DNA of 64,000 bases from Desulfatitalea tepidiphila (GTDB taxonomy: Bacteria > Desulfobacterota > Desulfobacteria > Desulfobacterales > Desulfosarcinaceae): the NCBI RefSeq assembly GCF_001293685.1, contig NZ_BCAG01000006.1, positions 496,001 through 560,000 on the forward strand, in the 5' to 3' direction. This document shows positions 40,776-45,514 of this stretch, piece after piece (within the stretch, counting starts at the first letter, position 1; each line of letters starts with the position of its first letter). The translations under genes and the position numbers were made by a program. The notes beneath the pieces were generated by a model. That model was not told where the DNA came from. It saw only the letters and a list, made by a program, of their open reading frames with translations, and made no database searches.

Positions 40776-40870
40776 AAGCACCTCCCTGGCGGACCGGCCG
40801 GCCCGCAAATGATAAAAATCATTTTACATGCTTCCCCGCCCAGCGTAAAGCCCGGCCTTGGAACATGAGC

Positions 40871-41168
40871 GATTCTAACTGAATGCGGCTCATCAAATCC
40901 GGCCCGGGTAGGACAGGTGACCGATGCCACACGCCTTTCGGTCAAGAGCCAGTAAAATGCACGGCGGGCGGCCCAGAAACTCGCTGCGCTCAAACAGTCT
41001 GGGCCGCTTGTCCGCCGTTTGCATTTAACTGGCTCTAAGACCGCAGGCTCACGTGGCCCTGGCCACCTGTCCTACCCAGGCCTGCCTCAACCGTTGCCAT
41101 GCGAATTTTTTTATCAAACGCCTTTGTAACGCACGCCCTTCAAGGTGAATCACATTCAATTAGAATTG
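40871..41168 (+). repeat. Full-length palindromic element, copy 1
   Basis: About 298 bases with terminal inverted repeats ATTCTAACTGAATG (left) and CATTCAATTAGAAT (right). Inside, long imperfect arms (GGGTAGGACAGGTG on both sides) close to a stem AGAGCCAGT/ACTGGCTCT and a perfect 10-bp inner stem GCGGCCCAGA/TCTGGGCCGC around a 20-base loop. It has no coding frame. A direct repeat GGAACAT occurs at 40860-40866 and 41174-41180, a possible target duplication. The rest of 40776-41258 holds only the flanks. Confidence 0.82.
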
Positions 41169-41258
41169 CTGCCGGAACATACGACAGGACCGACGAAAGA
41201 TGATATGGTACGGTCGTGGACATGACGAACCGCTAACGTCCCGAAGGCGACGACACCC

Positions 41259-43416: not shown

Positions 43417-43521
43417 TTATATAACCATTTGTAATAATGAATGAATTATAAACCTTCGACCTTCATGCGGGCAACCTATGAACCCACATCCGGCTTGTCA
43501 AGCCCAAATGCGCGACCGCGG

Positions 43522-43822
43522 GGATTCTAACTGAATTCTATATATTAAATCCGGCGTGGGTGGACTAGGTGGCCGATGCCACACGCCAAGCGGTCAAGTG
43601 CCGCTAAGAATGCACAGCGGGCGGCCCAGAAACTCGCTGCGCTCAAACAGTCTGGGCCGCTTGCCCGCCGTTTGCATTCGAGCGGCACTAAGACCGCAGG
43701 CGTACGTGGCCCTGGCCACCTGCTCCACCCGCGCCTGCCATCTCCGTCGCAATGCGAATTTTATTATCAAACGTCTTTTGTAATGAATGCCCTTCAAGGT
43801 GAATCACATTCAGTCAGAACTA
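43522..43822 (+). repeat. Full-length palindromic element, copy 2
   Basis: About 301 bases, aligned nearly end to end with the 40871 copy, including the identical core GCGGCCCAGA...TCTGGGCCGC and loop. The stem next to the core reads AGTGCCGCT/AGCGGCACT here but AGAGCCAGT/ACTGGCTCT in copy 1: changed on both sides so pairing is kept. Flanked by direct repeats GCGCGACC at 43510-43517 and 43826-43833. It lies between the YitT and HDOD genes. No coding frame. Confidence 0.82.
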
Positions 43823-43839
43823 CTGGCGCGACCCGAGCA

Positions 43840-43896
43840 ATTCCAACTGAAAGGTATTCAGAGTCCGTCCACAAACAGGCAAATTGGGTTGAGATC
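43840..43896 (+). repeat. Remnants of both repeat families
   Basis: Bases 43840-43861 (ATTCCAACTGAAAGG and TATTCAG) resemble the terminal repeat of the 300-bp elements. Bases 43862-43896 match 30 of 35 bases of the left arm of the 36976 palindrome (ACAAACAGGCAAATTGGG). Two repeat families thus abut here, next to the HDOD gene. Confidence 0.55.
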
Positions 43897-43915
43897 TCAT
43901 GGCCGCGCCGTGGGC

Positions 43916-45514
43916 CTACTTCGATCCCTGGCGATACTTGACGGCCAGGATGAGCTGATTGCGGAGCATGCTCAGGTAGCGGTGCGCCTCGTCACTGACC
44001 GGTTGACCGGCTTGATGGCGGTCGGCATAGAAGGCACCGATGCAGACGTTTTGTACCTTTATCGGCATAAACACAAAGGCTGGCGCATCGATGTGGGTGC
44101 GATACCAGGCTGGGAGCAGGCGAACGGTTTTGTCATCGTGGGCGTCGGCCACGATCAGATCCTTACCCGATGCAATGGACAAATTGAACAGATCCCGACC
44201 GGAGGAAACCTGAAAACCGACCTTGTGGGCCAGTTCATCGCTGCTGAGGCCATATCCGAAGCGTATGGTCATCGTACGGCCATCTCCTTCCCGGGCGAAC
44301 ATAAGAGCGCGGTGAAAGGCCAGTGCCCGGTAGAGAATTTCAAGACTCATCAAGGCGACGTCGTTGACATCGAAATCGGCCATCAGGGCCTCTGAAATCT
44401 CCTGAATACCCGCCAAAATCACGTCCTTGGGACTCAAGACCGCCGGGTCGCCGCTCTCTTCCTTGAATGCCAATCCATCGGTCAACTGGTGGCTTTGAGA
44501 CTCCGGCAAAAGCGACGCTTCAGCCTTCACATCCGGGAGTGCCGCTTCGGCGGTTTCGCAGCCCCTGGCCAGATGTTGGATGAACGCGCTGTTCTCGATG
44601 CTGAAATTCAATGCCTGGGCATGCCGTCGGACGCTGTCGATGGAGTCGAGGACCAATGTCTGGAGTTTCCGCCTGGTCAGCTTCACCCTGTCCTTGTAGC
44701 GGTCGAGCAAGTTTTGCCACTTGCGATCGTCGCCGGTCAACTCCCCTTGCTCGATCAGTTGCCCCAAGGCTTTCACAAAACCCGACACCACTCGCAGTTG
44801 CGTGGGAGCCTTGCGCCGGCCGCGCAAATCGTCCGAGGTCAGGGGCTGCAATCCTTCGCAGATTCGATCGGGAAAATTCCATTGCCCGGCCACGGCCGTT
44901 CCCAAAGCTTCGTAGGTCACCCCGCAGGCCGCTTTGACCGCCTTGGTTTCGCCGTGGCCGTGGGCGGCCATCCAATCCACGACCTTCTGATATTCATCGG
45001 GCAAATAGTAAATCATCACCAGTTTGCCCAATTGGGTCAACATGGCGCACACGAACGCCTCTTCGGGGTCGATGGCCGCACCCGCTCCCGCGATCTCCCG
45101 GGCCACCACCCCGGCCCAGAAAGAAGCGATCAGCGTCTCTTTCAAATCGGCCGTGTGGGCCTTGCCCTGGAAATGGTCCAGCAAGGCCAGGCTGATGGTG
45201 GCCAGCCGCACCCGCTCGTACCCCAGCACCACCACGGCCCGTGTAATGGTGGTCACCTTTCCGGCGACCAGGCCGTAGTAGGCCGAGTTGACCAGCTTGA
45301 GCAGCTTGTTGGTCAGGGCGTAATCGTTGAGGATCAGATTGGCCAGGTCTGAGGCATCGCAGGCCTCCTGGCAGAGGGACAATTTTTGATTGATCTCAAC
45401 GAGGTACTTCGAAATACTGGGAAACTCCTCGGTCCGCCGGATACGTCTGAGCATACGCGTCAGCGGAGTCTCCGGGGGTTTGTCACCTTTTACCGACGCG
45501 TTCGAGCCGGCCAT
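43916..45514 (-). CDS. HDOD-GAF signalling protein
   Basis: Cytoplasmic protein of 532 residues: an HDOD domain (about residues 25-215; EFPSISKYLVEINQKLS, LTNKLLKLVNSAYYG, ITRAVVVLGYERVR), a helical middle and a C-terminal GAF domain (about 370-525; FHRALMFAREGDG, FMPIKVQNVCIGAFYADR). HDOD lacks the HD metal residues and usually acts in two-component or chemotaxis signalling. AAGGG precedes the ATG at 45514. It is divergent from the sigma-54 activator, with 290 bases between them. Confidence 0.87.
   Translation of the reverse strand: MAGSNASVKGDKPPETPLTRMLRRIRRTEEFPSISKYLVEINQKLSLCQEACDASDLANLILNDYALTNKLLKLVNSAYYGLVAGKVTTITRAVVVLGYERVRLATISLALLDHFQGKAHTADLKETLIASFWAGVVAREIAGAGAAIDPEEAFVCAMLTQLGKLVMIYYLPDEYQKVVDWMAAHGHGETKAVKAACGVTYEALGTAVAGQWNFPDRICEGLQPLTSDDLRGRRKAPTQLRVVSGFVKALGQLIEQGELTGDDRKWQNLLDRYKDRVKLTRRKLQTLVLDSIDSVRRHAQALNFSIENSAFIQHLARGCETAEAALPDVKAEASLLPESQSHQLTDGLAFKEESGDPAVLSPKDVILAGIQEISEALMADFDVNDVALMSLEILYRALAFHRALMFAREGDGRTMTIRFGYGLSSDELAHKVGFQVSSGRDLFNLSIASGKDLIVADAHDDKTVRLLPAWYRTHIDAPAFVFMPIKVQNVCIGAFYADRHQAGQPVSDEAHRYLSMLRNQLILAVKYRQGSK

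Follow-up and report, generated by a model that had tools for sequence, protein, structure and literature searches.

A transposed element of Desulfatitalea tepidiphila carries a hairpin with covarying arms and a loop shared with other phyla

The window, a stretch of 64,000 nucleotides of the Desulfatitalea tepidiphila genome (contig 6, 496001-560000), contains two copies, A and B, of an element in which terminal inverted repeats enclose a hairpin of ~180 nt, a GC-rich foldback whose tip is a 20-21-nt loop (Table 1). The 24-nt core of the hairpin, CAGAAACTCGCTGCGCTCAAACAG, matches the window twice, at 40974 and 43627, and never in 100 shuffles; throughout the genome (5.6 Mb, 7 contigs) the core was found at up to three mismatches in 107 places, 52 on the plus and 55 on the minus strand, and the reversed pattern in none, which excludes chance. 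Two ORFs of at least 80 aa overlap copy B, 43576-43941 (121 aa) and 43787-44395 (202 aa), and both extend outside the element; the first, on the plus strand, crosses copy B and is probably no gene. An earlier note on this DNA had described compensatory base changes between the two copies. The three double changes in helix 1 (A-T to T-A, A-T to G-C and G-C to C-G) were confirmed, as was the identity of the inner 10-bp stem (GCGGCCCAGA/TCTGGGCCGC) and of the 20-nt loop. The paired change described for the outer arm is looser, copy A reading GGGTAGGACAGG/CCTGTCCTACCC and copy B GGGTGGACTAGG/CCTGCTCCACCC, with lengths that differ too.

Table 1. Features of the two copies in the window, and internally deleted elements of the same genome
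Feature	Position	Strand	Remarks
Copy A, full element, 305 bp	40867..41171	+	terminal repeats 40867-40885 (+) and 41153-41171 (-)
Copy A, left 9-bp target duplication TTGGAACAT	40858..40866	.	right copy CCGGAACAT at 41172-41180, 7/9 identical
Copy A, helix 1 left arm AGAGCCAGT	40945..40953	+	partner ACTGGCTCT at 41028-41036
Copy A, inner 10-bp stem and loop	40968..41007	+	stem 40968-40977/40998-41007; 20-nt loop 40978-40997
Copy B, full element, 307 bp	43519..43825	+	
Copy B, left 9-bp target duplication GCGCGACCG	43510..43518	.	right copy GCGCGACCC at 43826-43834, 8/9 identical; direct repeat
Copy B, left terminal inverted repeat CGGGGATTCTAACTGAATT	43519..43537	+	
Copy B, right terminal inverted repeat	43807..43825	-	reads CATTCAGTCAGAACTACTG on the + strand
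Copy B, outer helix left arm	43553..43582	+	partner at 43706-43735; inverted repeat
Copy B, helix 1 left arm AGTGCCGCT	43597..43605	+	partner AGCGGCACT at 43681-43689; inverted repeat
Copy B, inner stem left arm GCGGCCCAGA	43621..43630	+	partner TCTGGGCCGC at 43651-43660; inverted repeat
Copy B, conserved loop AACTCGCTGCGCTCAAACAG	43631..43650	+	complementary strand GAGC-GCA-GCGAG, includes GC-GNA-GC
Internally deleted own elements with both ends, 68-199 bp	L262, L264, L265, L266, L269-L272		

When the copies of this genome (n = 96) were aligned, conservation reached well past the hairpin. The elements start with CAGC[G/A]ATTCTAACTGAATG and carry its inverted copy at the other end, which gives terminal inverted repeats of ~19 bp, present at both ends in 82 of the 96 copies (at most 6 edits). 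In the full-element alignment, formed by the 77 copies with both ends located and a length of 285-325 bp, 68 measure 302-308 bp. Repeated 9-mers outside the element ends are the mark of transposition: among 71 copies (295-320 bp, with sufficient flank), and with a boundary shift of 2 allowed to copies and permutations likewise, the target duplications were perfect in 20 and had at most one mismatch in 39, against 0.23 and 0.73 expected with permuted flanks. Outside this genome, target duplications were spotted, by eye, in G039 (e.g. L306). A covariance model built from 90 copies placed at least 117 hairpins in the genome (147 matches minus 30 opposite-strand readings discounted by hand), a lower bound because 150 of 3608 candidates were scored; four of these places (L375-L378) are of a divergent type and were counted without an end check. 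No copy out of 94 lies inside an ORF of at least 130 aa (11 had no called neighbour, and element-overlapping ORFs under 700 bp were ignored), and the orientation of the neighbours is mixed (-+ 27, -- 22, +- 21, ++ 13). The eight shorter forms listed in Table 1 have the same ends, with the hairpin mostly or wholly missing, and fit the expectation for deletion within a palindrome; the clearest target duplication among them is that of L271 (TTACCTTGT/TTACCTTCT). A search of the genus for an empty site corresponding to copy B found none. In G007 the matches break off within the element on one contig and resume within it on another, so that copy B seems to be present there, split by the assembly. 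At L439 one flank matches the own locus L257 without the element and the other flank is unmatched, which does not establish an empty site.

The nearest kind of known element are the MITEs. Like bacterial MITEs, which the available part of PMC10969869 describes as short, non-coding, intergenic and foldable, with terminal repeats, target duplications and many copies, the element has terminal inverted repeats and a target duplication, lies between genes and spans ~305 bp without a transposase gene of its own. AT-richness, a feature given there as typical of MITEs and not defining, is missing, the GC content being 0.56 in the element, 0.665 in the hairpin and 0.598 in the window. The element differs from MITEs in this GC-rich hairpin (66.5% against 40.3% in the ends), in a loop shared exactly with hairpins of other phyla and in that its parent IS was not found: the terminal ends have 219 matches at up to three mismatches, and the ORF listings of 20 stretches around terminal-repeat matches, read by eye, showed no recognisable transposase. 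Searches of the element against plasmids and phages, and of a Bacteroides element against plasmids, gave no match. On contig 1 of G039 an end-like 19-mer (CTCAACTTTCGACTTTCAT) occurs 330 times at up to two mismatches; in the part listed it lies on the plus strand before 2.4 Mb and often on the minus strand after 3.0 Mb, which suggests an orientation with the replication arms.

Covariation of the arms was measured as cells with double changes, compared with slid partners and shuffles and not by R-scape. Two alignments were used: A1, with 90 own copies, and A2, with 42 sequences (12 own, 30 from relatives) picked for variety. The core occurs at up to three mismatches in 11 of 59 related genomes, own genome excluded, and the relatives' inner hairpins are mostly homologous and strongly changed; 122 unique inner hairpins were retained from 142 matches once L300, L304, duplicates, sequence ends and N had been excluded. 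In A1, 96.2% of the cells pair, and double changes occupy 73 cells, against 3-6 for the slid controls, at 4 of the 31 pairs, all in helix 1. The number of double-changed pairs is not above that of shuffles (reached in 255 of 500), so the own-genome signal is made of few variants common to many copies, that is, of a handful of subfamilies. The outer helix behaves likewise, with double changes at 38/213, 39/212, 41/210, 42/209 and 44/207 of the 77-copy alignment. In A2, 20 of the 31 pairs show double changes, in 159 cells (shuffled mean 50, slid partners at most 75), cell counts that kinship inflates, and 84.3% of the cells pair, a value lowered by the imperfect alignment of the G002 and G009 types. 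RNAalifold predicted 25 pairs on A2, 17 of them with double changes; the apical loop pairs it proposed were set aside because those positions are invariant in the alignment. The check by covariation over more copies that had been proposed was therefore positive, both within the genome and with the relatives.

Rare changes draw a different picture. Among stem transitions present in at most two copies, 18 of 39 leave a G-U pair, where half of the possible ones would; the pair is kept by 10 of 17 single-copy transitions and by 18 of 48 of those in up to three copies. Rare changes are thus neutral for pairing, and single copies seem unselected for it. Rare double changes in the 90 own copies amount to one paired and two unpaired, against 68 one-sided changes, so the arms seldom correct each other. 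Hence the claim that pairing is kept stands for the compensatory change itself, which is real, and does not seem to hold for the individual copies, whose rare mutations ignore pairing. The element is mobile DNA and not a set of guarded RNA genes.

The loop reaches far beyond the order. Its exact form, AAACTCGCTNCGCTCARACAG, was found in at least 119 stretches of genome contigs, and the 80 titles listed belong to about seven phyla: Bacteroidota, Bacillota, Pseudomonadota, Desulfobacterota, Nitrospirota, Patescibacteria (one Vogelbacteria MAG) and Gastranaerophilales (one MAG), of which the single-MAG groups could be contamination. Two stretches come from viral contigs (L102, L103). With one mismatch allowed, three of eight genomes searched contain 77, 38 and 37 loops, and the reversed pattern gave 3 matches in one of the eight and 0 in the other seven. 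Within the phylum of the window the exact loop occurs in 7 of 297 genomes, own included, a patchy distribution. The arms beside the loop were compared in 115 unique pairs out of 130 with full flanks (the two viral ones among the loci), with redealt right arms as control: 79 match at 7/7 positions, against 1.75% of the swapped arms, and 101 at six or more, against 7.8%; on inspection, three of the four lowest-scoring pairs pair well at a larger offset. The left 10-mers share a mean of 3.0 of 10 bases. With the loop constant and the arms dissimilar yet paired, the arms keep little except pairing. The N and R of the loop pattern were chosen from variation in the relatives and from similar strings, and its fixed positions cannot show variation because the pattern defined them; mismatch searches reveal changes of the final G to A and of CGC to TGC, and inserted bases also occur. 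Rare changes per site and copy run at 0.0013 in the loop, whereas the hairpin arms have 0.012-0.0215 and the ends 0.034-0.056, the loop value being biased since the copies were found by their loop; the covariance-model search, less dependent on it, gave 117 places against 107.

The clustering of 2598 ORFs from the cross-phylum loci revealed no shared neighbour gene family in the 25 largest clusters, which consist of common cellular families and of phantom ORFs overlapping the repeat. Rfam 15 gave no match above the gathering score in the window or in 16 loci of several lineages, and the sole sub-threshold match of copy B was MIR1437 (42.8 bits, gathering score 168). Literal 15-nt forms of the loop were not found in the open-access literature searched, figures excluded, which is weak evidence of absence; matches to 12-nt forms and to phantom peptide strings were unrelated, judging by titles, and topic searches of that literature brought nothing recognisable as the loop family in titles and the starts of abstracts. 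The combination, in several phyla, of a constant loop with arms that are unrelated but paired is undescribed, as far as Rfam and the searched open-access literature reach. Several lineages show peculiarities of their own. In records of Flammeovirga, Flavobacterium and Ralstonia (L277-L296, L232, L233, L241, L256) a similar block, T-rich/A-rich (TTTGTCTTG..CAAA..G.AAGCAAA), lies left of the hairpin and may itself fold into a hairpin and possibly a pseudoknot; the opening ~50 bases of the Ralstonia query, which include some of this block, also match four plasmid records from Paraburkholderia, Variovorax and Chitinibacter. The Lachnospiraceae records (L205, L179, L227, L235) have outer arms tens of bases longer, which vary between copies and still pair. 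Many contigs of the Peptococcaceae MAG G067 end within the element. At L304 (G039 contig 1, 888800-891200) four loops lie in 1.4 kb, their left arms cut near CTAAAG behind other sequence, and the ~100 bases after each loop are identical; this may be an unusual rearrangement or a fault of the assembly.

On the complementary strand the loop is TGAGC-GNA-GCGAG, with the variable base at the N of GCGNAGC. The available part of PMC4686876 presents GNA and GNNA loops with two or more closing G-C pairs as extraordinarily stable DNA mini-hairpins, and the d(GC-GNA-GC) type resembles the loop complement also in its free position at N. Those are synthetic oligonucleotides, whereas here the sequence sits in a 20-nt loop and its fold is putative. 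ViennaRNA with DNA parameters predicted no mini-hairpin in the wild-type loop. Natural variants of the tip lengthen a small hairpin in the middle of the loop: in four own loci (L371-L374) the centre is a CCCCGGC..GCCGGGG hairpin, with one base changed in two of them, for which a 7-bp DNA stem is predicted, and in G006 the centre GCC-TGC-GGC has one extra base pair around the same three bases. One-base insertions (GCATGCGC in L375-L378, GCTTGCGC in G001) are at odds with a strict GNA or GNNA loop. The tip may thus adopt a mini-hairpin, on the strength of the partial description of the oligonucleotides, the free base at N of GNA and the tip variants. We infer that the tip must be folded and is read by a trans-acting factor.

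The element has transposed and multiplied, it sits in intergenic DNA, its arms covary, and in other phyla hairpins with unrelated arms end in the same loop. These observations are best explained, with a probability of about 0.6, by a non-autonomous MITE-like transposon of ~305 bp in which the loop hairpin is kept in the spreading lineage for a mobilisation protein, while the copies afterwards mutate freely. A single strand in folded form, which is more likely to be DNA than RNA, would present the loop to the trans-acting mobilisation protein, and the need for this presentation would keep the hairpin in the source lineage. After insertion, copies would gather mutations regardless of pairing; the compensatory changes that separate copies A and B would then be differences between subfamilies of the source lineage, possibly exchanged between copies by recombination. 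Neither the neighbour-ORF clusters, nor the stretches around end matches, nor the co-occurrence of Y1 transposases in loop-bearing relatives revealed the mobilising protein.

Divergence from the consensus reaches 16.4% of sites in the ends and 6.8% in the hairpin, and per copy the two are uncorrelated (r -0.017): left and right ends diverge together (r 0.52), and each independently of the hairpin (-0.09, 0.02). Hairpin divergence that ignores insertion age counts against simple decay after insertion. Either other copies renew the hairpin and its own arms flip it, or it is constrained in place. Renewal at the site, in which the hairpin is repeatedly replaced or flipped by recombination, either with another copy or of one of its arms with the other, would leave it young while the ends age, the trigger being perhaps cleavage of the extruded palindrome; compatible with the MITE-like transposon, it has in our view nearly even odds. 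SbcCD-like enzymes cleave extruded palindromes, and an SbcD homologue is present in the genome, although the model also has matches in 13 of 14 control genomes. Renewal would also account for the free combination of outer and inner helix types (34/14/14/12 for positions 38 and 81) and for chimeric arms, as in L061 and L089. At the site shared by the own copy L047 and L427 of G007 the flanks are co-directional (1760 bp, 95.6%) and a 176-bp core matches inverted (96.6%); relative to the asymmetric ends, the core is reversed in 2 of the 96 own copies, normal in 80 and unclear in 14. Twelve shared sites were first aligned, from which L427/L047, L434/L073, L438/L014 and L439/L257 were omitted; in the first three of these the flanks match on both sides, with elements inverted or truncated. 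Three of the eight sites retained differ by fully paired double changes (L444/L035 at 3 pairs, L425/L045 at 1 and L441/L081 at 1; 9 pair positions compared), the matching flank of L441/L081 being mainly one-sided; the comparison L432/L007 uses the other copy in L007. On the other hand, most shared sites keep similar hairpins, with 1-5 differences in the inner block, and the opposite direction of the whole element between the matching flanks of L014 and G007 L438 could reflect either an inversion or two separate insertions. Common variants show low linkage throughout, ends included, so that separate genealogies of nested rings, suggested by a sharp Mantel boundary, are not claimed; after the linkage analysis much of that boundary appears as copy age. 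The balance tips towards renewal, given the flip and the neutrality of rare changes for pairing.

Constraint copy by copy would be expected of a dispersed structured RNA or protein-bound hairpin working at each site, for example on neighbouring mRNAs; the earlier note had named a structured RNA or a hairpin read by a protein. Covariation in both alignments, a hairpin less diverged than the ends and independent of them, and the slight excess of single-copy transitions that keep pairing agree with it; the transitions in up to two and three copies, which keep pairing no more often than the half possible, the mixed neighbour orientation, the absence of Rfam matches and the patchy distribution do not. 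The anatomy of transposed copies, with terminal repeats and 9-bp duplications, is absent from that note. Selection of pairing in each copy is rather improbable. Slightly less probable still is that paired changes, with pairing unselected, arise by copying from arm to arm, through template switches within the palindrome. Quasi-palindromes are known to be corrected in this way, and the process could produce the unrelated yet paired arms of other phyla, but it leaves the constancy of their loop unexplained, and the near absence of rare paired double changes in the own copies speaks against it. The gene conversion between arms that the earlier note had offered as an alternative is, by the same count, infrequent in place; exchange between copies is possible.

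A REP-type element mobilised by a RAYT (Y1 HUH) transposase is very unlikely, even though the element is palindromic, intergenic and present in high copy and Y1 transposases have 4 matches in its own genome, because three loop-bearing relatives, G005, G008 and G010 (13, 9 and 17 loops at up to three mismatches; completeness 100%, 64% and 95%), have 0 Y1 matches, the CTCGCTNCGCTC core is absent from ~3.3-kb stretches around the four own matches, and 9-bp target duplications with terminal repeats suggest a DDE-type enzyme. In the genus, own genome included, 8 of 11 genomes have Y1 matches. G001 and G006 belong to these eight, and their hairpins have variant loops whose inserted bases escape a pattern that allows mismatches only. 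REPs, in the available part of PMC3733652, measure 20-40 bp with a GTAG or CGTC tag (GTAG and CGTC super-families), and RAYT genes can be lost in some species. The element resembles these repeats in being palindromic, intergenic and spread over several phyla, and differs in its ~305 bp and in its relatives that bear loops without Y1 transposases; GTAG, CTAC, CGTC and GACG are absent from both strands of its consensus. Three Y1 loci (L224, L225, L226) encode RAYT-like transposases with a long C-terminal part, and in the one scanned, that of L226, DnaA models match residues 238-323.

An invariant loop on unrelated paired arms hints at a recognition system for the tip. It is possible, though doubtful, that AAACTCGCTNCGCTCARACAG is the recognition tip of an undescribed system for mobilisation or homing, one that crosses phyla and works on single-stranded DNA in its folded state, through the GC-GNA-GC mini-hairpin of the complementary strand. 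Such a system would accept any paired arms and different ends, with hairpins renewed or flipped at old sites. A constant 21-nt loop on stems that share little but pairing implies a strong constraint on the single-stranded tip and almost none on the stem sequence. If the loop marks a trans-acting recognition system, a single pattern could serve to look for this system across many bacteria, and a great number of intergenic repeats would find an explanation. Moreover, compensatory change, the usual evidence of a functional RNA, can arise in mobile DNA without visible selection for pairing in each copy.
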